A stretch of DNA of 54,426 nt, taken from positions 15,563 through 69,988 of the forward strand of contig NZ_LK995477.1 in the NCBI RefSeq assembly GCF_900002405.1, read 5' to 3'. The translations under genes and the position numbers were made by a program. The stretch is from Actinomyces succiniciruminis (lineage in GTDB: Bacteria > Actinomycetota > Actinomycetes > Actinomycetales > Actinomycetaceae). Of this stretch, positions 12,723-54,315 are shown in pieces. The notes beneath the pieces are model-generated. The model worked only from the letters and a program-made list of their open reading frames with translations, was not told where the DNA came from and did no database searches. Each line of letters opens with the position of its first letter. Position 1 is the stretch's first letter.

Positions 12723-12832
12723 ACTGACTCCCCGCGCCGGTCGCGCCGCGCGCCCGCGGATTCCGGGCCGCCCGAAACCTCCCCACCGCCAAACCCTCAT
12801 CCACCACCCCCTCCACGGAAACGGAGAATCCC

Positions 12833-13030: not shown

Positions 13031-13115
13031 ACGGCCGGGCCGGTGCGCCCGCGGGCACGTCGGGCGCGGTGAGGCGTACGGGCCCGGCGGCCGGCACCGG
13101 CCGGATACCCGCCGC

Positions 13116-14035: not shown

Positions 14036-14520
14036 TCGCGCGGAAGCGCTGCCGGGCCGCCGCCGCCCGGGTGCGCCGGACGGCCGCCGCGGAGGACGGG
14101 CAGACCCTGCTGCTGGGCGTCGGGCTGGTCGCCGTCGTCGCCGCATTGATTCTGGCGCTCGCCTCCGCCAGCGCCGTCTACCTGGACCTGAAGACCCTCA
14201 CCTCGCTGGCGGACTCGGCCGCGGTCGCCGCCGCGGATGCGATCGACGACGCCTCCTACTTCGCCGGAGACTCCACCACGGCCGGCCCCGGCACGCTGTC
14301 GGCTGCGGGCGTGCGGGCCGCGGCCGCCGCCGACCTGGCCGGACAACCGGTCGAGCTGACCGGGGTGCAGATCACCGAGGCCGCCAGTCCCGACGGCACC
14401 ACCGCCGTCGTCACCCTGACCGCGCATTCCCAGCCGCCCTTCCTGCCCTGGGGCGTAATCCCCGCAGCGGGCTTCACCATCACCGCGACCGGCACCGCCC
14501 GGGCCACCACCAACATGTGA
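14032..14520 (+). CDS. TadG-like / 'helicase-secretion neighbourhood' TadE-like protein
   Basis: A 162-residue last gene of the Tad operon. An N-terminal basic leader and EDGQTLLLGVGLVAVVAALILALASA form a membrane helix. The following LDLKTLTSLADSAAVAAADAI is the conserved TadG-type segment. The ATG at 14032 overlaps the previous stop by four bases. The position and sequence style fit the small TadE-like protein known from this neighbourhood in actinobacteria. The operon ends here. No prepilin peptidase (TadV) or CpaE/TadZ-like gene is present in the window, so these must be elsewhere if the system works. Confidence 0.75.
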   Translation: MIARKRCRAAAARVRRTAAAEDGQTLLLGVGLVAVVAALILALASASAVYLDLKTLTSLADSAAVAAADAIDDASYFAGDSTTAGPGTLSAAGVRAAAAADLAGQPVELTGVQITEAASPDGTTAVVTLTAHSQPPFLPWGVIPAAGFTITATGTARATTNM

Positions 14521-14532
14521 AGGCGCGGGGCC

Positions 14533-14658
14533 GAATGTCCGGATTCGGCATAAACGGGTCCGAAGCGGCCAAGAGCCGTTTCCGGATCGTTGGAATCAAG
14601 CCGTTTTATCGGCGGTCAGAGAGTGCGCGCCCGACGTTCCTGCCGGATTTGGACATTC
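14533..14658. repeat. intergenic inverted-repeat element, about 126 bp
   Basis: The outer arms 14533-14550 and 14641-14658 match at 15 of 18 positions (GAATGTCC at the outer ends, CGGCA at the inner ends). Inside are shorter pairs such as AAACGG/CCGTTT. It fills the gap between the Tad operon and the M18 peptidase gene. It could be a palindromic repeat element or the Tad operon's transcription end. Confidence 0.45.
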
Positions 14659-14685
14659 TTCAGCGGTGGCCTCGCCCGCCGGGCC

Positions 14686-14691
14686 CATACT
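14686..14691 (+). promoter_or_regulatory. -10 hexamer CATACT, leaderless-type spacing
   Basis: CATACT is followed by six bases (GGGCCC) and the ATG of the M18 aminopeptidase. There is no Shine-Dalgarno sequence. Confidence 0.45.
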
Positions 14692-14697
14692 GGGCCC

Positions 14698-16110: not shown

Positions 16111-16118
16111 ACCCCAGA

Positions 16119-16134
16119 GGGCGGTGCGCCGCCC
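16119..16134. terminator. short hairpin after the M18 peptidase gene
   Basis: GGGCGG and CCGCCC form a perfect 6-bp stem around TGCG, nine bases after the stop codon. It may act together with the larger hairpin at 16183-16221. Confidence 0.35.
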
Positions 16135-16182
16135 GGCCCCGCCCGCTTAGCCGCGCCGACCACCGGCCGCGCCACAAGACGA

Positions 16183-38498: not shown

Positions 38499-39467
38499 CT
38501 AGTCCGCGTCCGTGACCCGCCAGCGGCCCGCCCGGGCGCTACCCTCGCGCCGCAGGCGGCCCGAGGCGCGCAGGTCGGCGACGACACGTTCGGCGGTCCG
38601 GCGGGAGCAGCCGAGGAGGTCGGCCAGGTCGGCGACGGTCGCCGTCGGGCTCCCCGAAAAGAGGCTCAGCGCCTGCTCCTCGCGGCTGTCCGCGACAGTT
38701 TGCGCAGAGGGCTTCGCATACGGCATCAGCGCCTGGCGGATCACGGTGAGTATAAAGGCGACAAAGTCCTCGCAGGTGCCCACGGCGTTCGAATGGGCGA
38801 GCGTCGCGTAATACTCCCGCTGCCGGTCGCGGATCACCGTCTCAATCGGCAGCCACCTCAGGACTGGGCGCCAACGGGCCAGCAGCAATGTGTGCCACAA
38901 CCGCCCGGTCCGGCCATTGCCATCGGTGAAGGGATGAATGAACTCGAACTCGTAGTGGAAGACACAGGAAACGAGCAGCGGGTGGAGGTCGGTGTGCCGC
39001 ATCCAGTCGAACAGCTCGGCCATGACCTCGGGCACGTAGGCGGCGGGCGTGCCCGCATGGATGAGCCGATCGCCGTCGAAGACACCGGCATTTGCATTGC
39101 GCAGCCGACCGGCGTCTTCAATGATCCCGTCCATCATCACGCCATGGGCCCGCAGGAGATCGGTGATCGAGTATGGATCCAACTGGTCCATGATTTCGTA
39201 GGCGCGGTGGGCATTCTCGACCTCACGAATCTCCCGGGATGGCCCGAGCACGCGTTTGCCGTCGATGATCGCCGTGACGGCGTCTTCTGAGAGGACATTG
39301 CCCTCGATCATCAGCGAGGAGTGGATCGTGCGAATGCGCAGCTCGCGGTGCAGCTGCGGGCTCGTGCTCAGTGGGGAAGCGGGGCCGAGCGTCCCAACGA
39401 GTTCCGCGATCTCCATGCATAAGTTGTCGATTGCGGGCGTGCGGGTGAAGGGGGGCGTATAAGCCAT
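38499..39467 (-). CDS. Fic family protein, class II autoinhibited, with C-terminal HTH
   Basis: A 322-residue protein that would transfer AMP (or another nucleotide moiety) to a protein hydroxyl. The Fic active site HPFTDGNGRTGR (178-189) is intact. The inhibitory helix motif S-x3-E-G (SLMIEG, 51-56) lies N-terminal to it, which defines class II and keeps the enzyme low in activity until relieved. The N-terminus (MAYTPPFTR) and the C-terminal winged-helix segment (TVADLADLLGCSRRTAERVV, about 276-295) fit Fic proteins that bind DNA. RBS AGGAAG. The promoter has a strong palindrome, so autoregulation is likely. No separate antitoxin gene is adjacent. Confidence 0.92.
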   Translation of the reverse strand: MAYTPPFTRTPAIDNLCMEIAELVGTLGPASPLSTSPQLHRELRIRTIHSSLMIEGNVLSEDAVTAIIDGKRVLGPSREIREVENAHRAYEIMDQLDPYSITDLLRAHGVMMDGIIEDAGRLRNANAGVFDGDRLIHAGTPAAYVPEVMAELFDWMRHTDLHPLLVSCVFHYEFEFIHPFTDGNGRTGRLWHTLLLARWRPVLRWLPIETVIRDRQREYYATLAHSNAVGTCEDFVAFILTVIRQALMPYAKPSAQTVADSREEQALSLFSGSPTATVADLADLLGCSRRTAERVVADLRASGRLRREGSARAGRWRVTDAD

Positions 39468-42089: not shown

Positions 42090-43097
42090 TCAGCGAGAGC
42101 CGCGTAGAAAACTGCGCCCCTCGGACTCGTCGAAGCCGCGGTGCCCGTGAACCTCGACGGCGTCCAGCGCCGCCTCCAGCCGGTCCAGCTCCGCGCCTGT
42201 GAGCGAGACATCCGCGGCGCCGAGGTTCTCCAGGATCCGCTCCTTGCGCTTCGAACCCGGAATCGGCACCACATGCGGCCACTTCGCGAGCATCCACGCC
42301 AGGCTGATCTGGGCGCTGGTGGCGCCCTTCTCTGCGGCGAAGCGTGCCAGCAGGTCCACGATCGGCCGGTTGGCGGCCAGGTTCTCGGGCCGCAGCTGCG
42401 GCACCAGGTTGCGCACGTCGTCGTGCTCCTCGAACTGTGTGGCCGTGGTGACCTTCCCGGACAGCAGCCCGGAGGCGATGGGGGAGAAGGGGACGACGCC
42501 GATACCCTGCTCGGCGCAGTACGGCAGAACCTCCGCCTCAATGCCGCGCTCAACCATGGAGTAGATGTTCTGCACGGCGGTCACGGGTGTCACATCGTGG
42601 GCGGCGCGGATGACCGGCACATCCACCTGGGACAGGCCCCAGCCGCGAATCAGCCCCTCCTGGATGAGACGGCCCATGCCGTCGGCCACCTCCTCAACCG
42701 GCACCTCGGGGTTGACACGGTGCAGGTAGTACAGGTCGACGCAGTCGGTACCCAGGCGCGCCAGGGAGGCCACCAGGTGGTGGCGCAGCGTGTCCACCAC
42801 GCCGTCGGCCCGCACTTCCTCGGTCGGCAGATGCAGCTTGGTGGCCAGGACGACGTCGTCCCGGAAGGGGGCGACCGCCTTGCCGACGATGCGCTCATTG
42901 TGGCCCCGGTTGGCCGGATCGAGGTTCGGTCCGTAGGCCTCGGCGGTGTCGAAGAAGGTGCAGCCGGCGTCATGAGCGGCGCGGATCGCCGCGACCGACT
43001 CCGCCTCCGGCGGGATGTGCCCGTAGCCGTGGGACAGGCCCATGCAACCCATGCCGATCTCGGATACCTCCAGAGTTCCCAGGTGCCGCGTACGCAT
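42090..43097 (-). CDS. aldo-keto reductase
   Basis: A 335-residue TIM-barrel NADPH-dependent reductase of the larger AKR type (AKR13-like), acting on aldehydes or ketones. The catalytic tetrad is visible: Asp50 and Tyr55 in FDTAEAYG, Lys87 in LATKLH, His126 in YYLHRVNP. The C-terminal cofactor segment VVPIPGSKRKERILENL is present. The ATG at 43097 follows GGAGGGG. It is third in the run divergent from the TetR regulator. Confidence 0.9.
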   Translation of the reverse strand: MRTRHLGTLEVSEIGMGCMGLSHGYGHIPPEAESVAAIRAAHDAGCTFFDTAEAYGPNLDPANRGHNERIVGKAVAPFRDDVVLATKLHLPTEEVRADGVVDTLRHHLVASLARLGTDCVDLYYLHRVNPEVPVEEVADGMGRLIQEGLIRGWGLSQVDVPVIRAAHDVTPVTAVQNIYSMVERGIEAEVLPYCAEQGIGVVPFSPIASGLLSGKVTTATQFEEHDDVRNLVPQLRPENLAANRPIVDLLARFAAEKGATSAQISLAWMLAKWPHVVPIPGSKRKERILENLGAADVSLTGAELDRLEAALDAVEVHGHRGFDESEGRSFLRGSR

Positions 43098-43178
43098 TCT
43101 CGTCCCCTCCGTTTTCAAGACGCCGCTGCTCGACGGCGGCCGTCGGCACAACCCTATAGGTGGCGCGCCCTACGTGGG

Positions 43179-44120
43179 CTACTGGAACAACCAGCCCATG
43201 ACCTCGGCGTCGTGCGGGAAGAGCTCGAGCCCGCCGCCGTGCTCGCCGTAGAAGTCCGTGTGGCCCTCGAAGTACTCGTCCGGCTTCACGTCCAGCACGA
43301 CCAGCTCGTCGATCCCCTCCTGACTCAGGCCCGCGGCCAGGTACTTCTCCCGCAGCTGGGCGTAGGTGCGGCTCACCGGTGCGGAGCCGTAGTAGTCGTC
43401 ATTGGCCCCGGTGGACATGCGCATGGGCACGCGCGAGGCCGCCAGGGCATCCAGGTCGCCGTCCCACTGGGAGCATAGATGCAGGGCCCGCCGGTACAGG
43501 GCGGGCTCCAGACCCATCACGAGTGAGATCGTCTCGCCGCCGCCGGAGTAGCCGGACAGGTACACGCGTGAGGCGTCGATGTTGTAGGCGGACATCAGCC
43601 AGCGGGTCAGGGCGATGCATTGGCGGGCGGAGGTCTCACCCCAGTCCTCCAACTGCGGGGAGGCGATGATCATGTCCGGCACGTAGTCGTTGGCGACGAA
43701 GGCGAAGTCCTCGCCCAGGTGAGCGCCCACGCCCTGGAACCACAGGCCCCCCCCCCAGCCGGGGCAGGCGACGTACAGGGCGAAAGGTGTGTCGCCGTCG
43801 TAGGAGTCCGGGACGTGCAGGCTGAAGTGGATATCGCTTGCAGGGGAGCCCTGCAGCAAGTCGTCGACGACGAAGCCGCGATCGACCATGGTTCCCTCCA
43901 CCAGGGTCCCCAGGGCTCCGTCGGTCGGGATGGGAGTCGATCCGCCGTGTTGCGGCGTCGACATACTCGGTGGCTCCTCTCCTGCGCTGGATTCATCGGA
44001 GGGCTCGGCCGATACGGTGCTGCTCCTGCTTCTGCCCGCGCAGTCCGCGAGCGAAAGCAGGAGCAGCGGTGAGATCACCCCGACGGCGGAGCGCAGCAGC
44101 ATCCGTCGCTTCAGCGGCAT
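43179..44120 (-). CDS. exported alpha/beta hydrolase with a 10-G coding tract
   Basis: A 313-residue hydrolase. A KRRMLL start and long hydrophobic segment end in LADC (Cys27), a lipoprotein-like site with an unusual Asp before the Cys. A Ser/Pro/Glu-rich linker (30-65) leads to the catalytic domain with LSGYSGGGE (nucleophile Ser192), as in prolyl-oligopeptidase-like esterases and peptidases. Residues 120-126 (PGWGGGL) are encoded by a run of ten G on the coding strand (43747-43756 as C). One base gained or lost there would truncate the protein before its catalytic Ser. It lies 36 bases after the cytoplasmic hydrolase gene, in the TetR-linked run. Confidence 0.82.
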   Translation of the reverse strand: MPLKRRMLLRSAVGVISPLLLLSLADCAGRSRSSTVSAEPSDESSAGEEPPSMSTPQHGGSTPIPTDGALGTLVEGTMVDRGFVVDDLLQGSPASDIHFSLHVPDSYDGDTPFALYVACPGWGGGLWFQGVGAHLGEDFAFVANDYVPDMIIASPQLEDWGETSARQCIALTRWLMSAYNIDASRVYLSGYSGGGETISLVMGLEPALYRRALHLCSQWDGDLDALAASRVPMRMSTGANDDYYGSAPVSRTYAQLREKYLAAGLSQEGIDELVVLDVKPDEYFEGHTDFYGEHGGGLELFPHDAEVMGWLFQ

Positions 44121-44156
44121 GGCGCCGTCTCCGCCTGATGGCTCACCTCGAGACCG

Positions 44157-45029
44157 TCACAGGTTCTCGGCGAAGAAGGGCTCGATGAAGCCGAAGGCCT
44201 TGGAGACGTAGGGGGCCAGGTCGTACATGTCGAAGTGGCCGGCCTCGCCGATGACGTGCATCTGCTTGTTCTCGCCCGGCACCGCCTCGAAGACCTCGGT
44301 GGAGGCCTGGCGGCTCCAGGCGTTCTCGCCGGTGACGACCAGGTAGGGCTTGGTCATGTCCTTCATGATCTCGGGCACGTTGTAGGAGACCAGCTCGAGT
44401 TGGCTCCAGGCGACGACGTCGTTGCTCCAGCGCGGGTGCGTGCCGCGGGCGGTGTAGTAGTAGGCGGCGCCCTCATCGAAGGCGCGCGGCATGAAGTTCA
44501 GGTGCTCCAGTTCGCCCTCGCCGCTCTCGTAGGCGGCCTTCGCGGCCCGTACCTCGTCCTCGGGCTTGAAGAAGCCGGCCATGGCGGAGGTGGAGATGTC
44601 GGAGATGGCGGGGACGATGGCGGTGATCGCCTTCAGTCGCGGCTCCTTGACCCCGGCCACCGACATGTAGGAGCCAGAGCCGCAGATGCCCAGGCCGCCG
44701 ATGCGGTCGTCGTCGACGAAGGGCAGGGACTGGAGGAAGTCGACTGCGCCCTCGATATCGGTCTCCTTGACGTCGGGCAGTTCCTGCTGGCGCGGGGTGC
44801 CCTCGCTCTCGCCGAAGTAGGCGCCGTCGAAGACGAGGGTGACGTAGCCGAGCTCGGTCAGCCGTTCGGCGTACACGCTCTGCGCCTGCTCCTTGACGGA
44901 GAGCATCGGGCCGGTGACGACGATGGCGGGGTAGTTCCGGCTCAGGTCGAAGTCGGTGGGCAGGCGGAGCAGGCCCGCCAGGCGCAGGTTCAGGTCCTTG
45001 TTGGTGAAGACGACCTTCTGGGTGTCCAA
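44157..45029 (-). CDS. cytoplasmic alpha/beta hydrolase (YcjY-like)
   Basis: A 290-residue hydrolase starting with TTG at 45029, seven bases after GGAG. GPMLSVKEQAQSVYAERL near residue 40 and the nucleophile region GGLGICGSGSY (111-121) match the YcjY/DltE-like group. The elbow reads GICGSG instead of a standard G-x-S-x-G, so Cys116 or Ser118 may be the nucleophile. The His is in EAGHFDMYD near 268. First gene of the run controlled by the divergent TetR promoter region. Substrate unknown. Confidence 0.85.
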   Translation of the reverse strand: MDTQKVVFTNKDLNLRLAGLLRLPTDFDLSRNYPAIVVTGPMLSVKEQAQSVYAERLTELGYVTLVFDGAYFGESEGTPRQQELPDVKETDIEGAVDFLQSLPFVDDDRIGGLGICGSGSYMSVAGVKEPRLKAITAIVPAISDISTSAMAGFFKPEDEVRAAKAAYESGEGELEHLNFMPRAFDEGAAYYYTARGTHPRWSNDVVAWSQLELVSYNVPEIMKDMTKPYLVVTGENAWSRQASTEVFEAVPGENKQMHVIGEAGHFDMYDLAPYVSKAFGFIEPFFAENL

Positions 45030-45062
45030 AGTTGTCTCCGTTTCGAGTAGCGGAACATAGTC

Positions 45063-45085
45063 ACAAGTGACGGTTCGTCACTTGT
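45063..45085. promoter_or_regulatory. TetR operator candidate 1
   Basis: A perfect palindrome with 10-bp arms ACAAGTGACG and CGTCACTTGT around GTT. It lies in the hydrolase 5' leader, just downstream of its predicted transcription start. Confidence 0.7.
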
Positions 45086-45094
45086 CGTAGAAGA

Positions 45095-45123
45095 AAGCTA
45101 CGTGACGGACCGTCACTTGTCAA
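45095..45123 (-). promoter_or_regulatory. promoter of the hydrolase operon
   Basis: On the minus strand: consensus TTGACA (45118-45123), 17-base spacer, TAGCTT (45095-45100). The spacer is filled by operator candidate 2, so a bound repressor would block RNA polymerase directly. Confidence 0.7.
45102..45116. promoter_or_regulatory. TetR operator candidate 2
   Basis: GTGACGG-A-CCGTCAC is a perfect palindrome sharing the GTGACG/CGTCAC half-sites of candidate 1. It lies within the -35/-10 spacer of the hydrolase promoter and directly beside the -35 of the tetR promoter. Confidence 0.7.
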
Positions 45124-45146
45124 TGCGGGACAAGCCCGGATAGTGT
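45117..45146 (+). promoter_or_regulatory. promoter of the tetR gene
   Basis: TTGTCA (45117-45122), 18-base spacer, TAGTGT (45141-45146). Its -35 overlaps the opposite-strand TTGACA by five bases, so the two divergent promoters compete for the same DNA. Confidence 0.55.
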
Positions 45147-45203
45147 GATGGCAGCAACGGATGACCCGGGGCTGTGAACGGGCAAGGAGCAGCGAGGAGG
45201 GGT

Positions 45204-45872
45204 ATGGCCGACTATCAGCGTGCCTACAGCGCCGAGCACAAGGCCGAGCGTCTGGAGGAGATCAAGGCCGCCACCGACCGCCTCTTCGCCGCTCAGGGGT
45301 TTCATGGCGTCACGCTCGCCTCCATTGCCAAGGAGCTCGGGTGGTCCCGCGGAAATCTCTACCGCTACGCGCACACCAAGGAAGAGATCTTCCTGGACCT
45401 GTACCGGGACCGCAGTGCCGCTTATGTTCGAGCGATCGCCCGTGCCTTTCCGGCGCCCGCCGTGACGGCCGAGCCACTGCCCGTTGCCGAGTTCGCGCGC
45501 CGGTGGGCCGAGGTGACGGATCGACACCACGACTACCTGCGCTACCAAACGCTGCTCACCTCCGTCATCGAGACGAACGTGCCCCTGGACGTGCTGACCG
45601 CCTTCAAGCGTGATCTCGAGACGGACGTCCAAGGCGCAATCGCCGTCGTCCAGCGGCAGGTACCCGGCCTGGGCGTGGAAGCCGCATCGACGGCGTATCG
45701 GGCGCTCGTCTATCACGCCGCCGCCCTGCATGGTCACCTGCACGGGGCCCCGACCCAGATGCAGGCGATGCAGGCCGCCGGCATGCCTCTGCCCGAGGGC
45801 GGATTCTGCGGCGAACTCGCGGACTTCGTCGAGATCTATCTGACCGGTCTCACCCGGTCGCTGCCGCGGTAG
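45204..45872 (+). CDS. TetR family transcriptional regulator
   Basis: A 222-residue regulator with an N-terminal helix-turn-helix (TLASIAKELGWSRGNLYRYA, about 37-56) and a ligand-binding C-terminal domain that includes a His-rich stretch (YHAAALHGHLHG near 173). ATG 45204 follows GCGAGGAGGGG. It diverges from the alpha/beta hydrolase operon, and two palindromes with identical half-sites lie between them, so it very probably represses both that operon and itself. The inducer is unknown. Convergent with the flavodoxin-like gene across a terminator hairpin. Confidence 0.92.
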   Translation: MADYQRAYSAEHKAERLEEIKAATDRLFAAQGFHGVTLASIAKELGWSRGNLYRYAHTKEEIFLDLYRDRSAAYVRAIARAFPAPAVTAEPLPVAEFARRWAEVTDRHHDYLRYQTLLTSVIETNVPLDVLTAFKRDLETDVQGAIAVVQRQVPGLGVEAASTAYRALVYHAAALHGHLHGAPTQMQAMQAAGMPLPEGGFCGELADFVEIYLTGLTRSLPR

Positions 45873-45888
45873 GCGCTCGCCGTGGTTG

Positions 45889-45924
45889 CAGGCCGCCCGC
45901 CAGTGGGGCATAACGGGCGGCCTG
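45889..45924. terminator. bidirectional terminator hairpin
   Basis: CAGGCCGCCCG (45889-45899) pairs perfectly with CGGGCGGCCTG (45914-45924) around a 14-base loop. It lies between the convergent tetR and flavodoxin-like genes and can end both transcripts. Confidence 0.7.
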
Positions 45925-45988
45925 CCGGGCGCTCAGTACAGGGCCGCCCCGGAAGAGTCGGCATACTCCCTGCTTTGCGTTCGGCTAC

Positions 45989-46450
45989 TCATACTGCCGC
46001 CTCTATGGCTTTGCGCAGGGCCGGCAGGTCGCCCGCGCCGAAGGCGGTCCCAATCAGGTCTAGGCCGTAAAGGCCCGCGAAGCGGGTGATCGTGTACGTC
46101 GTCGCACCCATCCCGGGCTCCGCGCGAGGCTGGTCACCCTGGGTGAAGAAGGCGAGCCTCCGGCCAGCCAGCTCGACCGACGGTGCTCCATACATGCGCT
46201 CAAGGAGGGTGCGGGGCAGGGCACCGAGCGAGTGCCAGTACACGGGCGTGCCGAGCACGATGACGTCCGCATCCAGGAGCCGTGCCAGCACCTGCTCGAA
46301 CTGGTCGCCGACCGCGCGCTCGGAGTACAGGGGCTCGATGCGGTAGTCGACCAGGTCGAGAGTCTCGTAGTCGAGACCGGCGAGCAGGTCGGCCGCCATC
46401 TGGGCGGTGCGCCCGTCGCGGTGCGGGCTGCCGTTGACGAAGAGGATCAT
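45989..46450 (-). CDS. flavodoxin-like NAD(P)H-dependent oxidoreductase
   Basis: A 153-residue protein starting MILFVNGSPHRDGRTAQMA, the FMN phosphate loop of small NADPH-dependent flavin reductases. TPVYWHSLGALPRTLLERMYG near residue 68-88 is the second flavin contact. It would reduce quinones or other electrophiles. GAGGAA lies about 12 bases before ATG 46450, and longer frames upstream are non-coding in style. Last gene of the nine-gene LysR-linked run, 37 bases after the NAD(P)-binding protein gene. Confidence 0.85.
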   Translation of the reverse strand: MILFVNGSPHRDGRTAQMAADLLAGLDYETLDLVDYRIEPLYSERAVGDQFEQVLARLLDADVIVLGTPVYWHSLGALPRTLLERMYGAPSVELAGRRLAFFTQGDQPRAEPGMGATTYTITRFAGLYGLDLIGTAFGAGDLPALRKAIEAAV

Positions 46451-46487
46451 GGGAGTCTCGTTCCTCGGAGTTGGTTGGATCGTGCGG

Positions 46488-47231
46488 TCAGGCGTCGAGG
46501 CGGTCGATGTCGGCCTGCACGCGGGCGGGCTCATCGGCGAGCGGCACGAGGTCCTGGTCGAGCGCGCCGCGGCCCGCCTCGGTGTCCGGCTGAGTCGCGG
46601 CGAACAGCGCCTCGAAGTCGGTGACCGGTGCGCCCGGCCGGGAGAAGACCTCCACGGTGCGGTGCTCTCCGGAGGGGTTCAGGGCGCCCTCGATAAGCAC
46701 CTGGGCGATGTGGTGGCGGTCCACGCCGGGCTGCCCCTCCACGAGGTCGCCCTGGCGCAGGTCGATCTGGGTGTCGTCAGGTCCCTGGTAGTCGAACCAG
46801 CCGGGCCGGACGATCGTGTACGGGTGCCCGGAGGCGCGCACCAGCCGCTCGGCGCGGCGCTTCCAGTCCCAGGACTCGCCGGACGGGTGGGAGATGTACA
46901 TGGAGGTCATCAGGCTGATGTAGACCTCCGGCCGATCGGTCAGGGCCTCCAACAGTGCGGGGATGACGGCGTAATAGTTGTGCTCCAGGTCGGCATCCCC
47001 GCCGTGGGTGAGGATGACGACGTCGACGCCGTCCAGGACCGCGGCCAGTGAGGCGGCATCGGTGGGGGAGGCCTCGACGATATCGGCCCCGGCGGGCAGG
47101 GAGCGGGCGGCCCGGGCGGCGTTGCGGGACTGGGCCCGGACGCTCAGCCCCCGGGCCAGGGCCTCCGCGACGACGACGCGGCCCACCTGGCCGGTGGCGC
47201 CGATGACGAGGACGGTGCGGGTGTCGGACAT
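46488..47231 (-). CDS. NAD(P)-binding atypical short-chain reductase (NmrA-like)
   Basis: A 247-residue Rossmann-fold protein with VIGATGQVGRVVVAEAL (about 9-25), the G-x2-G-x2-G loop of atypical SDRs that bind NAD(P). SRNAAR provides a basic patch for NADP. PYTIVRPGWFDY near 140 is typical of the NmrA/YwnB-like group. There is no Y-x3-K catalytic pair in the usual place, so it may be a redox sensor or a reductase of non-classical type. AAGGAA precedes the ATG. Penultimate gene of the LysR-linked run. Confidence 0.85.
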   Translation of the reverse strand: MSDTRTVLVIGATGQVGRVVVAEALARGLSVRAQSRNAARAARSLPAGADIVEASPTDAASLAAVLDGVDVVILTHGGDADLEHNYYAVIPALLEALTDRPEVYISLMTSMYISHPSGESWDWKRRAERLVRASGHPYTIVRPGWFDYQGPDDTQIDLRQGDLVEGQPGVDRHHIAQVLIEGALNPSGEHRTVEVFSRPGAPVTDFEALFAATQPDTEAGRGALDQDLVPLADEPARVQADIDRLDA

Positions 47232-47324
47232 GGCAGTGTTCCTTCTGCAGAGTTCTGTGGAAATGTGTGGTTCGTGGTTGTTCGGTGATGTCGGAGGCGG
47301 CCGCGCTTATAGCGCTGAGGGCGG

Positions 47325-48350
47325 TCAGGCGTCCGCGAAGGCCCGCTGCATGAAGTCGTCGTACTCCTCGATCCAGCCGCCCTCGGCGCCGAAGCCGTGG
47401 GGCCAGCCGTCGAGCACGCGGGCGTGGACCGTGGCTCCCCGGGCGGCCATGACCTCCACCTGCGCCTCGAACTGGTCGTAGAACGGGTCGCGGGTGCCAT
47501 AGCAGTAGTAGGTCGGCACCACGCCGGTCAGGCGGTCCGGGGCGAGCTCGGCCACCGACAATCGCCCGTAGAAGGAGTAGATCATCGCCGTCGCGGTGGC
47601 GTCGGCGCTCACGGAGTCGAGTGCGTCCGGCCTGTAGTCGGCGTCGAGTTCGGCGGGGGAGGTGCTTCCCGACCAGTTCAGGATCGTCTCCCCGCACAGG
47701 ATGCCGCCGGCGGAGTAGCCGCCCAGGGCGATGTGCTGCGGGCTGGGCAGGCCGTAGTCGTCGGCGTGGGCGCGCACGAAGCGGATGGCGCGGGCCAGGT
47801 CCACCCCGGCCTCGGCCTGCGTGTACGGCCGCACCCGGTAGTCGACCACGAAGCAGTGATACCCGCGTGCGGAAAGCTCCGCGGCGGTCGGGTAGCAGTC
47901 GGAGTTGTCCCCGCGCAGGGCGAAGGCGCCGCCGGCGCACAGCAGCACGGCGCCCCTGACCGTGTCCCCGGCCGCGGGCACGCTCGTCACCGTGGGGCGG
48001 AAACTGGCCGGGTCGTAACCCGAACCGCTGGGGGCGGTGGTGGCGGGCGCGCCCGCCTCCTCCCACAGGAACAGGCACTGGCTGCGGGCCGGGTCGACCG
48101 TCGCCGTCGCCACGGTTCCCTCGACGGTGGCGGGGTCGGGACTGACATGATCGAAGTCGACGCCGCTGAAGGTGGGGGAGGAGTCCAGCTTGACGTAGTC
48201 GCGTACCGCGGCGAGGTCGGCGGAGGGGCCGACGGTGCCGCCGCCGTCCCGGTTGCCCGTGCAGGCGCTTAGGGCGCCGGCGGCGGCCAGCAGGCCGGCT
48301 CCGCGGCCGAAGGTGCGTCGGGTCATGGCGTGCATCATTCCTTTCCTCAT
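47325..48350 (-). CDS. Tat-exported lipoprotein alpha/beta hydrolase
   Basis: A 341-residue hydrolase of the esterase/lipase (HSL-like) type. TRRTFGRGAGLLAAAG and LSAC (Cys30) give a twin-arginine lipoprotein signal. The catalytic domain has the Gly-rich oxyanion segment LCAGGAFAL and GGYSAGG with the nucleophile Ser, then a C-terminal GWPHGFG with the His. AGGAG eight bases before ATG 48350 (MRKGMMHAM) favours this start, and two further in-frame Met codons follow within 9 codons. It is 45 bases after a paralogous lipoprotein hydrolase gene. Confidence 0.87.
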   Translation of the reverse strand: MRKGMMHAMTRRTFGRGAGLLAAAGALSACTGNRDGGGTVGPSADLAAVRDYVKLDSSPTFSGVDFDHVSPDPATVEGTVATATVDPARSQCLFLWEEAGAPATTAPSGSGYDPASFRPTVTSVPAAGDTVRGAVLLCAGGAFALRGDNSDCYPTAAELSARGYHCFVVDYRVRPYTQAEAGVDLARAIRFVRAHADDYGLPSPQHIALGGYSAGGILCGETILNWSGSTSPAELDADYRPDALDSVSADATATAMIYSFYGRLSVAELAPDRLTGVVPTYYCYGTRDPFYDQFEAQVEVMAARGATVHARVLDGWPHGFGAEGGWIEEYDDFMQRAFADA

Positions 48351-48395
48351 GTCTTCGTCTCCTGTTGACTCGGGCCACCTCACCCGGGGTGAGGC

Positions 48396-49454
48396 TCAGC
48401 CCCGTCCGGCGGCGGACGCGTCGATTTGCGCCTGCCAGAAGGCGGCGGCGTCCTCGATCCAGCCCTCGGCGACGGTCCCGATGCCGAGCCCGAAGCCGTG
48501 CGGCAGGCCGTCGTAGGCGTGGAACTCGGTGGGGGTGCCCGCGGCCGCGATGGCGTCCGTGCGGGCCTGCATGGTCCGCCAGGACGCGATGCCGTCCGCC
48601 GTGCCCACGCAGGCGAAGGTCGCCGGCTCCGCGCCCGAAAGGTCCGAGTGCCCCGTGTACTGCATGACGACGGCGCCGGGGCCGGGCACGTCGTCGCCCC
48701 CGAATCGGGCGGGGCCGTAGGACCCCAGATAGGCGGCCAGGCGCGCACCCGCAGAGCCGCCCCAAAGCGAGTAGCCCTCCGGGTTCACACCGAGCTCATC
48801 GGCGTGGGCATGGATGAAGGAGATGGCCCGGGCCAGGTCCTCGCAGCCGGTCTGGGCGTTCGGCCGGTACTGCAACGTGAAGGCCGTGTAGCCGTGGCGG
48901 GACAGCCACAGGGCGTGCGGCATGGAGTCGTGGATGGAGGCCACGTAGGCGAAGCCCCCACCGGCGTTGCAGACGGCCACGCGCGGCCGGGTGCCCTCCG
49001 CCGCTCCCCGGGCGGGGAAGACGAACAGGCCGGTGTCCTCAAGGCTGGGGTCGCTCGCCCGCTCGGCCTCGGTGTAGATGCTGTAGAAGACCGTCTCCCC
49101 ACCCGCCCGGCGCTCCAGTAGGTCGCCTATGACGTCGACCGTGGTGGCGGTGTCTACATGGGAGTACCAGGTGAGCAGGTCGGGCACGTCTGCCAGCGTG
49201 TCGCCCGGCTGGGGCGTGTTGAAGGTGATGGGGAACAGGAAGCGCCCGTAGTCCTCCAACAGCGGGTTGTCGATGACATCCGTGATGAGCGTGCTGCTGT
49301 TCACGGCCCAGTCACCTCCTGCGCCTGCCGTGTCCGTCGCGCTGGCCGCCGCCGTCCGCGCGGCCGATGGCGTCGTACGCGAGCAGCCCGTGGTGGCCGC
49401 CAGTGCGGCCACCACGGTTGCGGCGGTGCGGCAGAGCCTCCGGCGCGTCAGCAT
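48396..49454 (-). CDS. lipoprotein alpha/beta hydrolase, paralogue
   Basis: A 352-residue exported hydrolase. MLTRRRLCRTAATVVAALAA ends at the lipobox TTGC (Cys24), followed by a Ser/Ala/Thr-rich linker. The catalytic domain has CNAGGGFAYV (oxyanion hole), SLWGGSAGARLA (nucleophile Ser) and GLPHGFGLGIG with the His. The arrangement matches the neighbouring lipoprotein hydrolase, so the pair arose by duplication or was recruited together. The ribosome site is weak. It starts 27 bases after the upstream hydrolase gene, and coupling is possible. Confidence 0.85.
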   Translation of the reverse strand: MLTRRRLCRTAATVVAALAATTGCSRTTPSAARTAAASATDTAGAGGDWAVNSSTLITDVIDNPLLEDYGRFLFPITFNTPQPGDTLADVPDLLTWYSHVDTATTVDVIGDLLERRAGGETVFYSIYTEAERASDPSLEDTGLFVFPARGAAEGTRPRVAVCNAGGGFAYVASIHDSMPHALWLSRHGYTAFTLQYRPNAQTGCEDLARAISFIHAHADELGVNPEGYSLWGGSAGARLAAYLGSYGPARFGGDDVPGPGAVVMQYTGHSDLSGAEPATFACVGTADGIASWRTMQARTDAIAAAGTPTEFHAYDGLPHGFGLGIGTVAEGWIEDAAAFWQAQIDASAAGRG

Positions 49455-49481
49455 CAGCGGATCCCGGCCGGACGAGGGCGG

Positions 49482-50489
49482 TCAGGCCAGCCCCTTCGAG
49501 TCGAGCCAGGCGTGGATATGCGCGGCGATCTCATCGGAGTTGCGGTCCTGGAACATGAAGTGATCGTTGCCGCGGATGCCCTCTTCCGGCAGCACAACGA
49601 CCTCGCAGTCGCCGCCATGGGCGTTCACGACCCGCTCGAACTCGCGGGCGATCGCCAGGACGCCGCGCCAGAACTGGTTGGCGGGCACCTCCTCGTCCAC
49701 GCCCTCGGCGGGAATGTAGTCCCCGTAGTAGACGCGGATCGGGAACCGTGTCAGCGCCTCGAACTGCTCCGCCGGGACCGGGATGCCGGCCGCCGCCACC
49801 GGATACTCGGTGGTGATCGGCTCCGGGCACTCGTCCTCCGGGAACAGGAAGCTGCCGGGCTCGATGGCCACGACGGACTCGATGTTCGGGCTCGCGGCGG
49901 CGATGAACCAGCCGGGGATACCGCCCTGCGAGTGGGTGACAAAGGTGGCCGGACCGGACTTCTCCAGCACGGCGACCAGGGCATCCGTGATGACCGGGAT
50001 GTCGAACTCGCCGGTGTCGGGTGTCATCTGGCGGAAGAACTGGTCCATGGACTCGTCGTCGGTGGGCAGCTGGATGCCCTCGGCGAACTCGGGCCAGCGC
50101 CCCATGCGGAACTGGGTGAACCAGTTCTGGTCGTCCGGGGTGGCCGTGATCTCCACCGGCACGGAGGACTGGCCGGCCTGCCCGCGGCGCGGCTGGTCGA
50201 CCAGGTAGATGCCGTAGCCACGGCGCAGGAAGAAGTCTGCCCAGCCCTCGCGGCCGTCCGGGGTGGACTGCCAACCTGAGAAGGACTGGCCGAATCCGTG
50301 CAGGAAGACCAGTTTGTGGCCGTTGGCGTCCTCGGGCAGTTGGTAGAAGACGTGCGCGTGGTCCGAGTGGCGGGTCTGCCCGGCCTCGGCCAGCTGGCCG
50401 GTGACCGCGTCGAAGGTGCCGGGGGCGGTCTGGACGGTTCCGCCCGCCTGGAAGGCGCCCTGGCGGGCGATGACGATGGGGTTGCTCAT
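49482..50489 (-). CDS. cytoplasmic alpha/beta hydrolase
   Basis: A 335-residue soluble alpha/beta hydrolase without signal peptide. KLVFLHGFGQSFSGWQ (oxyanion hole, about 59-74), FVTHSQGGIPGW (nucleophile Ser, about 183-194) and IRGNDHFMFQDRNS (His, about 305) place it with esterases of the large extracellular/cytoplasmic group annotated simply as alpha/beta hydrolase. There is no obvious Shine-Dalgarno before ATG 50489. Fifth gene of the LysR-linked run. Substrate unknown. Confidence 0.85.
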   Translation of the reverse strand: MSNPIVIARQGAFQAGGTVQTAPGTFDAVTGQLAEAGQTRHSDHAHVFYQLPEDANGHKLVFLHGFGQSFSGWQSTPDGREGWADFFLRRGYGIYLVDQPRRGQAGQSSVPVEITATPDDQNWFTQFRMGRWPEFAEGIQLPTDDESMDQFFRQMTPDTGEFDIPVITDALVAVLEKSGPATFVTHSQGGIPGWFIAAASPNIESVVAIEPGSFLFPEDECPEPITTEYPVAAAGIPVPAEQFEALTRFPIRVYYGDYIPAEGVDEEVPANQFWRGVLAIAREFERVVNAHGGDCEVVVLPEEGIRGNDHFMFQDRNSDEIAAHIHAWLDSKGLA

Positions 50490-50576
50490 TGGTGAGGATG
50501 TGCCTGTCTGGTCGGTGGTGGATGAACCGGGGCCGCCTGGCCGGCAGCCCCGTGGCCTGTGCCGGGCTCGCGGGGC

Positions 50577-50906
50577 TCAGGCCTCGTCGTCGCCCCAGAT
50601 CTCGTCGATCATGGGGAAGGTGCTCCAGGCCTTGGGCCAGCCGCAGTAGAAGGCCAACTGGGTGACGATCTCCACGGCCTCCTCCTTGGTGATGCCGTGG
50701 GCCTTGCCGAGCGCGAGGTGGCTCTTCAACTGGGGGTACAGTCCCGCGGAGAAGAGCGCGGCGATGGTGATCATGGAGCGGTCGCGGGCGCTGAGCTGCT
50801 CCTCGCGCGCCCAGACCTCCCCGAAGAGCACGTCGTCGTTGAGAGCGGCGAACTGCGGGGCCAGGTCGCCCAGGCGGTCGCGGCCGGCGGTCTGCTTCTC
50901 AGCCAT
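50577..50906 (-). CDS. carboxymuconolactone decarboxylase-like protein
   Basis: A 109-residue all-helical protein of the CMD/AhpD superfamily. DRSMITIAALFSAGLYPQLKSHLALG and LAFYCGWPKAWS are family blocks. It lacks the C-x2-C of AhpD peroxidases, with only a single Cys at the YCGWP position, so a thiol-peroxidase role is not supported. The start at 50906 has AGGAGGAA upstream. It follows a cupin gene, an arrangement seen widely in bacteria. The partners may act on a lactone-like or organic substrate, but no reaction is established. Confidence 0.88.
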   Translation of the reverse strand: MAEKQTAGRDRLGDLAPQFAALNDDVLFGEVWAREEQLSARDRSMITIAALFSAGLYPQLKSHLALGKAHGITKEEAVEIVTQLAFYCGWPKAWSTFPMIDEIWGDDEA

Positions 50907-50953
50907 GGTGGGTGGTTCCTCCTGCGAGTAGTGAAGTGGGTTTAATGGGTATT

Positions 50954-51373
50954 TCAGGCCAATGCCCGGTAATCGGCGTCGGAGACGGGCTCGCACCACT
51001 CAGTGACGGTGCCCTCGCCGGGGACCTCCAGGGCGATGTGCTGGAAGGCCGTGTCGGCGGCGGCGCCGTGCCAGTGCTTGAGACCGGCGGGGATGTTGAC
51101 GACGTCGCCGGGCTTCAGCTCACGGGCCGGCTCGCCCCACGCCTGGTACCAGCCGCGGCCGGCGGTGGCGATGAGGATCTGACCCCCGCCGGAGGTGGCC
51201 TGGTGGATGTGCCAGTCGTTGCGGCAGCCGGCCTCGAAGGAGACGGTGAAGGCCGGGACCTGTTCGAGGGTGAGTACGCCCAGGTAGCTCTTGCCGCTGA
51301 AGTGCGCCGCGAAGCGGGTGTTCTCCTCGCCGAAGGGCAGATAGGACTGTTTCAGTTCGTCAATGGTGGTCAT
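50954..51373 (-). CDS. cupin domain protein
   Basis: A 139-residue single-domain beta-barrel. Likely metal ligands are His55 and His57 (WHIHQ), Gln65 (GGGQILI) and His100/His102 (KHWHG). This matches the cupin type normally paired with CMD-like genes, as here (47 bases apart). No reaction is known for the family. The ribosome site is weak (AAAGAA). Third gene of the LysR-linked run. Confidence 0.88.
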   Translation of the reverse strand: MTTIDELKQSYLPFGEENTRFAAHFSGKSYLGVLTLEQVPAFTVSFEAGCRNDWHIHQATSGGGQILIATAGRGWYQAWGEPARELKPGDVVNIPAGLKHWHGAAADTAFQHIALEVPGEGTVTEWCEPVSDADYRALA

Positions 51374-51469
51374 GGGTTCTTTGGATGTAATGAAGGATCG
51401 GTGTGGAAAGGAAGCGGAATGGCCCGGGCCGGGCGGTCCCTGGCCGCCAGAACGGGACCGGGGAGGGGC

Positions 51470-52357
51470 TCAGTACAGCGAGCCGCCGCCGATCTGCTGC
51501 TTGACCATGTCGCGCAGCAGCCAGCCCACGACCTTCGGGTCGTAGTGGTCGAAGATGCGCGGCAGCGTGCCGTCGTCCAGGGCGGAGAAGGTCGCCAGGT
51601 CCTCCTCGGTCAGTTCGAAGTCGAAGACGTCGAAGTTCTCCTCCATGCGGTTGCGGTGCGTGGACTTCGGGATGACCACGACGTCCTTCTGGATCAGCGC
51701 CCGCAGGATCACCTGCCCGGGCTTCTTGCCGTACTTGGCGCCGATCTCGGCGAGGACCGGGTTGGCGAAGATGTTGTTCTGCCCCTCGGCGAAGGGCGCC
51801 CACGCCTCGTGCACCACGCCGAGTTCGGCCATGACCGCGTGCGCGGCGTCCTGCTGGCGGAAGGGGTGCGTCTCGATCTGGTTGACCGCCGGCGTGATCT
51901 CGGCCAGCGCGGCCACATCCACCAGGCGCTCGGGGTAGAAGTTGGACACGCCGATGGCGCGCAGCTTGCCAGCCTTGTAGGCGTCCTCCATGGCCCGGTA
52001 GGCGCCCGGGTAGTCGCCCATCGCCTGGTGCAGCAGCATCAGGTCAATGTGGTCGGTGCCGAGCTTTTCCAGCGACTCGTCGATGGAGGCGGTGGCGCGC
52101 TCGTAGTTCATGTTGGACACCCAGATCTTGGAGGTGATGAACACCTCGTCGCGCGGCAGGCCGCTCTTCGCGACGGCCGCGCCGACGCCCTCCTCGTTGC
52201 CGTAGGCCTGGGCGGTGTCGATGAGCCGGTAGCCGACCTCGAGGGCCTCGCTCACGCAGCGCTCGGTCTCATCGGGCGGGGTCTGGAAGACGCCGTAGCC
52301 GAGCACGGGCATCTCGACGCCGTTGTTGAGGGTCTTGGTGGGGACGGTGGTGGTCAT
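51470..52357 (-). CDS. aldo-keto reductase (2,5-diketogluconate reductase type)
   Basis: A 295-residue TIM-barrel reductase with Asp47, Tyr52 (IDTAQAYG), Lys77 (ITSKIW) and His110 (MLLHQ) as tetrad, and VVIPKSTHRNRMEENFDVF as the NADPH-binding segment. It would reduce aldehydes, alpha-keto compounds or methylglyoxal-type electrophiles. AGGAGAG lies before the ATG. Second gene of the LysR-linked run, next to a related but clearly different paralogue. Confidence 0.92.
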   Translation of the reverse strand: MTTTVPTKTLNNGVEMPVLGYGVFQTPPDETERCVSEALEVGYRLIDTAQAYGNEEGVGAAVAKSGLPRDEVFITSKIWVSNMNYERATASIDESLEKLGTDHIDLMLLHQAMGDYPGAYRAMEDAYKAGKLRAIGVSNFYPERLVDVAALAEITPAVNQIETHPFRQQDAAHAVMAELGVVHEAWAPFAEGQNNIFANPVLAEIGAKYGKKPGQVILRALIQKDVVVIPKSTHRNRMEENFDVFDFELTEEDLATFSALDDGTLPRIFDHYDPKVVGWLLRDMVKQQIGGGSLY

Positions 52358-52447
52358 GGGTTTCTCTCCTGATGCGGGTCTTGAGTGGTTGGGGGGCCGA
52401 TCTCGGCGGTTGGCCGACGCCGTGACGACCGGCCAGGCTCGGACGGG

Positions 52448-53326
52448 TCAGGCCTGCTGGGAGTAGTCCATGACCGTCGTCGTGAAGGCGGGCGGCTCGT
52501 CCGGGATCACGTAGTAGGGGGCCTGCGGGATCTCGTTGATCGCAGCGATCTCCGCCTCCGTCAACTTCACGTCGAGGGCGGCGAGGTTATCGGCCATGTG
52601 GGCGGGGTTGAGGGTCTTGGGGAAGGTGATGTTCTTCTCCGCCAGGTGCCAGGCCAGGATCACCTGGGCGGCAGTGGCGCCCGTGCGTTGTGCGGCCGCG
52701 GTGATCGCGGGCTCTTCCAACAGGGTCTTGTCACCGTGGCCGAGCGGGTACCAGGCCTCCACCAGGACCTCGGCCCCGGCGGCCCGGTCCATCTGCGCCT
52801 TCAGCTCGTGCTGGTTCCAGCGCGGGTGGGCCTCCACCTGGTTGACGACCGGCTTGATGCCGGCGACGTCCAGGATCTCCTGGAACTTGGCGATGGGGAA
52901 GTTGGACAGGCCGATGGAGCGCACCTTGCCCGCGGCCACGGCCTCCTCCATGGCCTTCCAACCGGAGGTGTACTCGCCGTAGGGCTGGTGGAACAGCAGC
53001 AGATCAACGTAGTCCAGAGCCAGGCGCTCCAGGGTGGCGTCGATGTCCTTGACGGCCTGCGCGTAGGGGTAGGACTGCGGGAACAACTTGGTGGTGATGA
53101 ACAGGTCCTCACGCTTCACGGTGCCTGCGGCGATCGCATCGCGCACCACCTCGCCGACGGCGACCTCGTTGAAGTAGGCGTTAGCCGTGTCGATGTGCCG
53201 GTAGCCCAGCTCGAGGGCCTGCGGCAGGTGCTCGCGCACCTGGTCGGAGGTCATCTGGAAGACGCCGTAGCCCAGCGCCGGGATGTCGATGCCGTTGTTC
53301 ATGGTGAAGGACGGGATGGTGGTCAT
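52448..53326 (-). CDS. aldo-keto reductase, paralogue
   Basis: A 292-residue protein with tetrad residues Asp46, Tyr51 (IDTANAYF), Lys80 (ITTKLFP) and His113 (LLFHQP). The cofactor segment ITFPKTLNPAHMADN departs from the usual IPKS-x3-R, so cofactor preference may differ from the neighbouring paralogue. First gene of the nine-gene run, with AGGAG eight bases before the ATG, divergent from the LysR regulator. Confidence 0.92.
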   Translation of the reverse strand: MTTIPSFTMNNGIDIPALGYGVFQMTSDQVREHLPQALELGYRHIDTANAYFNEVAVGEVVRDAIAAGTVKREDLFITTKLFPQSYPYAQAVKDIDATLERLALDYVDLLLFHQPYGEYTSGWKAMEEAVAAGKVRSIGLSNFPIAKFQEILDVAGIKPVVNQVEAHPRWNQHELKAQMDRAAGAEVLVEAWYPLGHGDKTLLEEPAITAAAQRTGATAAQVILAWHLAEKNITFPKTLNPAHMADNLAALDVKLTEAEIAAINEIPQAPYYVIPDEPPAFTTTVMDYSQQA

Positions 53327-53466
53327 TGATGCGCTCCTGGGACTTGCTTCGGGACCAGCTCAATGCCGTCCCGCTGTGCATAAGTCTTCGCCCCAGGGGC
53401 GCGGATGTAAAATGCCAATATCGGAACTCTTGATGCGCTACGTGCATAAGCAGAGGGAGGGGACTG
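53327..53466. promoter_or_regulatory. LysR / reductase-operon divergent control region
   Basis: 140 bases. TAAAAT (53407-53412, plus strand) is a good -10 for lysR about 55 bases before its GTG, with a poor -35. GTGCATAAG occurs twice in direct orientation (53376-53384 and 53442-53450), 66 bases apart, and could mark regulator half-sites. A classical T-N11-A palindrome was not identified with confidence. Confidence 0.4.
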
Positions 53467-54315
53467 GTGGATTTCGAGCAGCTGCGCCAGCTGGAGGCGA
53501 TCGCGCGGGAGGGCACCCTCAGCGCCGCCGCGCGCACCCTGCACCTGTCCCAGCCGGCCCTCAGCCGCTCGCTGCAGCGTCTGGAGGCAGAGCTCGGCCA
53601 GTCGCTCTTCGACCGCCCGGGGCGCCGCCTGGTGCTCAACGAGGCGGGCCGTGTGGCTCTGGAGCATGCCGGGCGGATCCTGCGCGAGGAGCAGGCCATG
53701 CGCACCGCCCTCGACGACGTCGCCCGCCGCACCCGGGCGCTGCGCGTGGGTGCGGTCGCACCCGCGCCGCTGTGGCGGCTGACCTCGCTGATCATCGAAC
53801 GCTTCCCCGGCCTGGTGCTCACCTCGCAGAGTCTCGGCAGGGAGGAGGTCGAGGAGGGCGTTGTGAGCGGCGAGCTGGACCTGGGCATCTCGCTGCGTCC
53901 CCATCCGCTGCCGAGCGTGCGCTCGGCCCGGCTCATGGTGGAGAACCTCGCCGTCGCCCTGCCCGCTGAGCACGCGCTCGCGAACCGCGAGCAGGTGACG
54001 GCCGCGGAGCTGGACGGCGAGACCTTCCTGCTCCTGGCAGACATCGGCTTCTGGCGCGAGCGCTGTGACCGCTACCTGCCCCACTCCCAGTTCGTGGTGC
54101 AGGAGGACCGCGGCGTTTTCGAACAACTGGTCAAGAGTTCTCCGCTGCCCCACTTCGTCTCCGACGCGCCTGCCCTGTCGGCGCTCGCTTCGGACCGCGT
54201 CGTCGTGCCGATTCGGGACGCCATGGCCCATGCCACCTTCTTCCTGCTGCTGCGGCCCGGTGGGCGCAGCGAGGCCACGGATGTCTTCGACTGGGTGCGC
54301 AGCCGGGTTGGCTGA
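53467..54315 (+). CDS. LysR family transcriptional regulator
   Basis: A 282-residue regulator with the N-terminal LysR helix-turn-helix (TLSAAARTLHLSQPALSRSL, about 17-36) and a periplasmic-binding-protein-like effector domain. GTG 53467 follows AGGGAGGGG and gives the standard MDFEQLRQLEAI start. It diverges from the aldo-keto reductase, cupin and hydrolase run, the classic arrangement for LysR control of its target operon, so it is likely that operon's activator. The effector is unknown. Confidence 0.93.
   Translation: MDFEQLRQLEAIAREGTLSAAARTLHLSQPALSRSLQRLEAELGQSLFDRPGRRLVLNEAGRVALEHAGRILREEQAMRTALDDVARRTRALRVGAVAPAPLWRLTSLIIERFPGLVLTSQSLGREEVEEGVVSGELDLGISLRPHPLPSVRSARLMVENLAVALPAEHALANREQVTAAELDGETFLLLADIGFWRERCDRYLPHSQFVVQEDRGVFEQLVKSSPLPHFVSDAPALSALASDRVVVPIRDAMAHATFFLLLRPGGRSEATDVFDWVRSRVG

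Follow-up and report, generated by a model that had tools for sequence, protein, structure and literature searches.

A 54,426-nucleotide stretch of the Actinomyces succiniciruminis genome (contig NZ_LK995477.1, positions 15,563 to 69,988; hereafter the window) carries nine minus-strand open reading frames (ORFs) at 45989–53326, divergent from a plus-strand LysR-type regulator at 53467..54315 (HTH_1 and LysR_substrate domains). Outward from the regulator, this operon encodes two DkgA-type aldo-keto reductases (AKRs), AKR2 (52448..53326; Pfam Aldo_ket_red) and AKR1 (51470..52357); a metal-site cupin of a mandelonitrile-lyase-like family (50954..51373); a CMD-family protein (50577..50906; PF02627, solved relative 4g9q); and a soluble alpha/beta hydrolase, solHyd (49482..50489). 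These are followed by two exported hydrolases, the BD-FAE-type lipHydB (48396..49454; twin-arginine motif, imperfect lipobox, signal peptide judged by inspection) and the lipoprotein lipHydA (47325..48350; Abhydrolase_3, twin-arginine motif, LSAC lipobox, start and signal judged by inspection), and, by profile matches, by an atypical short-chain reductase (46488..47231; NmrA/NAD_binding_10) and a flavodoxin-fold FMN reductase (45989..46450; FMN_red, start by inspection). An earlier note on this DNA had described nine co-directional genes of these families, divergent from a LysR gene and separated by 27–96 bases; Pfam and profile searches found every ORF and matched every family, and the gaps measured span the same range, also with the CMD, lipHydA and FMN reductase genes restarted at downstream ATG codons chosen by inspection for their better Shine-Dalgarno sequences. 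The strong terminator claimed for the operon's 3' end proved only partly right, since what lies between the convergent FMN reductase and TetR genes is a GC-rich, perfect 12-base inverted repeat (45888–45899/45914–45925), possibly a bidirectional terminator, without a T run; the terminator scan reported no intrinsic terminator at this end, and the region folds no better than its shuffles (z -1.0). Base composition gave no sign of a foreign island (69.4% GC in the operon against 69.9% in the window before 42000).

Evaluating the gap between the regulator and AKR2, we found at 53433..53447 a predicted LysR operator, the dyad ATGC-N7-GCAT containing T-N11-A, which was derived by aligning three LysR–AKR gaps (those of the window, of P. 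massiliense, and of Actinomyces sp. ZJ308, which among the data compared is the closest relative with a name) and has its sole exact match in the window here; with one mismatch allowed, the window holds no excess of the dyad (13 against 18 expected). The dyad recurs exactly in 12 of 15 further LysR gaps, which makes 15 of 18 LysR upstream regions overall. Across these 18 loci (336,821 bases), which are related rather than independent, two being near copies of the window, 15 of 17 dyad copies lie at most 160 bases upstream of the LysR start where base composition predicts 0.026, and of the remaining two copies one stands by a second, partial LysR gene and one elsewhere in the P. massiliense locus (L052). 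Among more distant LysR loci, the exact dyad is absent upstream in L014, L015, L020, L035 and L044, and L016 has one. A predicted operon promoter (53383..53411, minus strand) pairs a -35 hexamer TTTACA (53411–53406) with a -10 hexamer AAGACT (53388–53383) across a 17-base spacer, and by inspection the alignment of the loci also contains similar hexamers on the operon strand, with the same 17-base spacing. Counted from the start predicted by eye from these hexamers, the dyad centre falls near -65, the usual position of the recognition site of LysR-type regulators, such that the divergent LysR and the T-N11-A dyad together would make this a LysR-regulated divergent operon.

What the regulator keeps beside it is an AKR. 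A LysR orthologue (E <= 1e-60) is present in 17 of 49 genomes of the genus, and in all 17 (the window, ZJ308 and 15 other loci) a divergent AKR1 or AKR2 homologue is adjacent to it, with AKR1 found in 13 and AKR2 in 13 of the 15 other loci.

The gene pool from which the operon is drawn continues past the end given for it, into a TetR gene and three minus-strand genes at 42090–45872. The TetR regulator (45174..45872, plus strand; TetR_C_34) is convergent with the operon and divergent from the next block, which comprises hydC (44157..45029), a YcjY/PA2218-like alpha/beta hydrolase with a conserved Cys at the nucleophile position and 92% identity in ZJ308; lipHydD (43179..44120), an exported S9/esterase-like hydrolase with a 51% identical ZJ308 homologue and a signal judged by inspection; and AKR3 (42090..43151), with 43–46% identity to two AKRs of a Klebsiella plasmid version. 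ZJ308 carries a single run of LysR / AKR1, solHyd, lipHydB, lipHydA, NmrA, Flavodoxin_4, lipHydD, FMN reductase and hydC, lacking AKR2, cupin and CMD, and because this run unites homologues of both window blocks, we conclude that the two blocks draw on one gene pool. Further off, at 38499–39467, the window encodes a Fic/DOC-family protein with C-terminal winged-helix matches.

The tails of the 15 other Actinomyces loci (operon side covered to about 13–16 kb, tail genes counted at 45% identity or more) contain CMD in 7 (76–92% identity), a full AKR3 in 3 (85–98%), lipHydB in 3 plus a fragment in one, lipHydA in 3 (one split, one partial), NmrA in 2, cupin in 1 and solHyd in none, with hydC seen as one partial copy and one fragment, FMN reductase as one copy in pieces and TetR as one fragment; genus-wide, solHyd occurs in 2 of 49 genomes and hydC in 3 of 49 (E <= 1e-60, one partial). 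The exact nine-gene set of the earlier note is therefore not a shared unit: the loci richest in operon genes elsewhere hold six of the nine (ZJ308 six, genome G226 five in one unit or six if its second, damaged unit is counted), and far fewer are present in most of the 17 LysR genomes. G226 and G235 have the fullest tails of the 15. In G226 the first unit reads AKR1, CMD, lipHydB, lipHydA, NmrA, AKR, and AKR2 lies in the damaged one; G235 has AKR2, AKR1, lipHydB, a partial lipHydA, NmrA, an AKR, and a partial hydC and TetR. In G199, with a LysR 99% identical to the window's, the tail is shortened: AKR2 and AKR1 are followed by fragments of lipHydB and of hydC and by AKR3. Such a patchy and often broken record, together with the rarity of solHyd, would fit an ordinary LysR–AKR operon with unrelated accessory genes parked downstream and a tail without common function, but the same tail families meet each other again in other phyla (see below), and we regard this explanation as very improbable.

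Rearrangements are visible at several of these loci. About 9 kb separates the two LysR–AKR units of G226 (L140:515-2512 and 9873-16179); each has a dyad of its own, and one of the units is damaged. In P. massiliense (L052:10001-10939 and 11103-11991) a chimeric hydrolase joins solHyd residues 3–128 to lipHydA residues 154–340 and a further AKR copy is split over two frames, from which we conclude that this module is decaying. In another Actinomyces (L080:9284-9719) the C-terminal part of the cupin abuts the C-terminal part of LysR, the intervening genes being gone, as a deletion scar.

We assessed the enzymes for their active sites using tblastn matches in the collected loci, many of them related and with a match that does not cover a position counted as a miss, and found the key residues intact in the window proteins and kept in most relatives. 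The Asp/Tyr/Lys/His tetrad is present in 42–43 of 43 AKR1 and 41 of 41 AKR2 matches, and the window AKRs, at 239 and 204 bits against a cutoff of 425 for the curated DkgA model NF008598, are related to DkgA rather than equivalogs of it. The cupin retains its His/His/Gln/His metal site in 53–55 of 55 matches and scores 111.5 bits against the (R)-mandelonitrile lyase model NF049940 (cutoff 140), its solved relatives being 2f4p (TM1010, the best), 4bif, 4uxa and 8oz8; the best solved relative of AKR1 is 1vp5, presumably TM1009, the Thermotoga product neighbouring TM1010. For solHyd the Ser (64/66 matches), Glu (63/66) and His (64/66) of the triad are conserved, and this, together with its homology to 4q34 (276 bits), 1qlw (116 bits) and a group of 370-residue hydrolase chains that we take to be SulE (143–149 bits), places it in the SulE/1qlw esterase superfamily. 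Nucleophile and histidine positions are likewise kept in hydC (Cys 24/24, His 21/24), lipHydA (Ser 8/9, His 9/9) and lipHydB (Ser 10/14, His 11/14), as is the Ser of lipHydD (17/19). In the CMD family the His is present in all 20 matches with no Cys at the probed positions, and since the window CMD holds one Cys it has no CxxC and is not an AhpD/RclX-type CMD peroxidase. We also tried PcaC, the 4-carboxymuconolactone decarboxylase, as an identity for this protein and rejected it, the score (56.1 bits) being far below the TIGR02425 cutoff of 155.7. With no CxxC and so low a score, the decarboxylation inside the cell that the earlier note suggested, following ester cleavage outside, would be conjectural.

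With three signal-bearing hydrolases and two without, and with many relatives from gut or plant samples (judging by record titles and hosts), the enzyme set invites a reading as a scavenging or catabolic module, in which exported esterases would act on esters of plant, dietary or host origin to yield acids or alcohols, and cytosolic enzymes would pass the product into metabolism; on a Klebsiella plasmid, genes for an aldoxime dehydratase and a carbon-nitrogen hydrolase lie within a few kb and fit the same idea. Yet the scanned proteins of 42090–54315 include no transporter, CoA ligase, ring-cleavage or beta-oxidation families, the constant partner of LysR is an AKR and not an esterase, and neither CMD nor cupin reaches the cutoff of the curated model tried for it (PcaC and mandelonitrile lyase, respectively). 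We therefore consider a catabolic role unlikely.

A solHyd search of genome contigs returned 53 loci, mostly from gut-type Clostridia, with others in Tessaracoccus, Lactobacillaceae and metagenome-assembled genomes (MAGs) of Campylobacteraceae, Sutterella and Spirochaetaceae. Counting homologues at 50 bits or more within each collected stretch (an ORF being assigned to the query that matched it best, and many stretches ending at contig ends), we found AKR in 36, one flavodoxin query in 32, an Fe-dehydrogenase in 21, lipHydD in 17, lipHydB in 11, cupin in 10, LysR in 9, hydC in 8, CMD in 5, FMN reductase in 5, lipHydA in 3 and NmrA in 2; in Tessaracoccus (L012) only an NmrA homologue accompanies solHyd. 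Cupin, CMD, SulE-like hydrolase and LysR recur as a group, with the gene order shuffled, in Companilactobacillus, on two contigs of gut Clostridia and on conjugative plasmids of enterobacteria, and in Companilactobacillus and the plasmids this grouping includes AKRs. In Clostridia the Fe-dehydrogenase adjoins a DkgA-type AKR and scores 251 bits against NF011717, which we take to be the YqhD model (cutoff 645). Across phyla, loci L015 and L016 (55–57% GC) show striking identity to the window proteins (CMD 87–89%, cupin 67–70%, L016 hydC 80%), though both are contigs of MAGs.

Genes of the set do co-occur in relatives, and the condition under which the earlier note would have been refuted, a dispersed set with no co-occurrence, was thus not borne out. 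In the whole genomes of 25 of the 53 loci, hand-picked after an earlier result was seen, 23 of 91 AKR1-type copies lie inside the solHyd-anchored loci against 0.55 expected (copies inside loci taken by tblastn at 95 bits, genome totals at E 1e-30), as do 6 of 26 CMD copies against 0.15 expected, two of the six being weak (<25 bits); 7 of these loci hold no AKR1-type copy and 19 no CMD copy. This comparison was anchored mostly on solHyd and LysR. Used alone, the cupin was rejected as an anchor: it is generic, with a homologue in 47 of 200 genomes of the family, an AKR match in 3 and a CMD match in 2 of 20 cupin neighbourhoods, and, at the second cupin of the window's own genome (L074), no match to any other query closer than about 9 kb. 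Other versions include those of Rhizobium (with paoA/paoC), Achromobacter and Parabacteroides, those of Selenomonas and Pusillibacter in which no solHyd was found, and an Enterobacter cupin match that sits with CMD and an alcohol dehydrogenase and no AKR. A solHyd tree (57 rows) joined the window to ZJ308 (100/99) and left deeper branching unsure, and it does not prove transfer.

Plasmids carry the module as well. A tblastn search with solHyd matched 88 plasmid records (best 54% identity), and the module is present on three plasmids typed as conjugative, Klebsiella pK66-45-1 and one each from Pantoea and E. coli, where an MFS pump and a nitroreductase adjoin it. The plasmid order is hydrolase, AKR, two-component pair, cupin, CMD, flavodoxin, solHyd, AKR, AKR, LysR, and the Klebsiella and Pantoea proteins share 40–46% (cupin), 54% (solHyd), 51% (AKR1) and 43–46% (AKR3) identity with those of the window. 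In the enterobacterial version, the gap separating solHyd from the AKR pair holds inserts that differ from strain to strain (L102:11604-14494, L107:10212-11294), either genes for SIR2 and an ATP-binding protein or a SMEK-domain gene; these resemble defence genes, and the gap is perhaps an insertion hot spot.

A core query was matched by 2174 of 5426 E. coli genomes, of which 4 hold at least 80% of it; in a sample of 25 rows taken from across the ranking, 20 extend over AKR–AKR–LysR (47% of the query), 4 over less and 1 over the whole. In E. coli O25:H4 strain 18044, the one genome displayed, an AKR gene adjoins rclC of rclABC and the AKR–AKR–LysR trio lies 7 kb away. These E. coli observations bring in a dedicated oxidant response (hypochlorite or hypothiocyanite), in which carbonyl and quinone reductases would repair secondary products, and the accessible text on P. 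aeruginosa assigns CMD-family RclX to an HOCl/HOSCN response (PMC7950407). The same text gives RclX a CxxC, however, whereas the window CMD has a single Cys; no Rcl family appears among the 18 Pfam-scanned window proteins, rcl genes not having been sought in the genome; and with one E. coli genome displayed, the rcl site may be a mere insertion hot spot. We judge this response to be a distinctly unlikely primary role.

The neighbours met again from genome to genome comprise reductases acting on carbonyl, quinone or nitro compounds, aldehyde oxidoreductase, efflux functions and esterases, and the common thread among them is the disposal of reactive carbonyl or electrophilic compounds. The earlier note had left the choice between an undescribed catabolic and an electrophile-defence system, and these neighbours favor the latter. 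On balance, we lean towards a module that LysR activates to detoxify reactive carbonyls or electrophiles, constant in its head and variable in its tail, some of whose substrates may arrive as esters or lactones; from context and families we infer its inducer, its substrates, the order of its steps and the roles of cupin and CMD. LysR would sense a reactive carbonyl or electrophile, or one of its metabolites, at the ATGC-N7-GCAT operator and turn on the promoter at 53383–53411, and AKR2 and AKR1, the first two products, would reduce the aldehyde or ketone with NADPH. The tail would widen this range: esters or lactones could be opened by esterases, both exported (the three that carry signal peptides) and cytosolic (SulE-like solHyd and Cys-nucleophile hydC), and quinone, enone or lactone products could be acted on by CMD, the metal cupin and the two further reductases (NmrA-type and FMN).

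Several observations count against this detoxification reading. The sigma-70 scan does not report the promoter hexamers at 53383..53411, which were read by eye, and within the genus a stop interrupts, as read, 3 of the 17 matches to LysR, while several copies are broken. Versions without an AKR exist, L015 and L016 having none in the locus or, at E 1e-30, in the genome. The enteric CMDs align weakly with the window CMD (29–32%), and a close orthologue of the window LysR is missing from the plasmids (L095 gives 38.9 bits, L094 no match at E 1e-5). More generally, the AKR, SDR and hydrolase families are promiscuous, and the arguments from neighbours come from other organisms with other LysR subfamilies. 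A bolder version, which we entertain tentatively and think doubtful, is an undescribed mobile cross-phylum island for masked electrophiles, its LysR-controlled AKR head fixed and its tail genes swapped between hosts, in which esterases or lactonases would unmask an ester- or lactone-protected toxin and the AKR, quinone-reductase, cupin and CMD enzymes would disarm the released carbonyl.

Parts of such a detoxification module are already known in kind, namely LysR–AKR and YqhC–YqhD–DkgA detoxification, and CMD, oxidoreductase or epimerase (COE) genes with ECF41. In E. coli, the LysR-type gene yafC neighbours dkgB. The excerpted account of E. coli glyoxal and furfural detoxification (yqhC-yqhD-dkgA and yafB, or dkgB) has YqhD reducing glyoxals and YqhC controlling yqhD and the AKR gene yqhE (PMC5297802), which resembles our locus in that a divergent regulator drives carbonyl reductases including a DkgA-type AKR, and the Clostridial relatives add a YqhD-like dehydrogenase beside such an AKR. 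Unlike that system, the window has LysR and not AraC, adds esterases, cupin, CMD, and NmrA and FMN reductases, and has no Fe-dehydrogenase among the scanned proteins of its block. The ECF41 COE genes, in the portion of PMC3426412 at hand, share the CMD, oxidoreductase and epimerase/NmrA kinds, with cupins in four cases, but are mostly singly linked to the ECF41 gene and their CMDs have CxxC; the window has no sigma-factor family among its 18 scanned proteins and a CMD without that motif. SulE, per the available extract, de-esterifies sulfonylurea herbicides (PMC10356948), and solHyd is homologous to it and to the Alcaligenes esterase 1qlw with the Ser-Glu-His conserved, yet is closer to the uncharacterised 4q34. 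The alt cluster for allicin tolerance in Pantoea ananatis is, in the excerpt of PMC8417944, also plasmid-borne with alkene reductase, SDR, CMD and TetR genes, but it has DsbA-family and sulfur-related genes, and its seven genes named there include no AKR pair, cupin or SulE-like hydrolase. No such cluster appears in the accessible parts of the texts on the P. aeruginosa arqI-gloA2 operon (PMC12274486), HOCl (a review, PMC7464077), Klebsiella in maize (PMC9785288) or P. aeruginosa (a review, PMC8466533). An exact-word search of open-access literature, in which "aldo/keto" was unsearchable such that absence is weak evidence, found no description of this gene combination; what we did not find described is the joining of these parts with SulE-like and Cys hydrolases, and its spread.

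If the detoxification reading holds, one gene pool would supply bacteria associated with hosts and plants with a transferable kit for chemical defence that reaches the conjugative plasmids of Enterobacterales. Cupin, CMD and SulE-like proteins now annotated by family only would thereby gain a testable function, and a regulator with a predicted operator would allow inducers to be screened directly.

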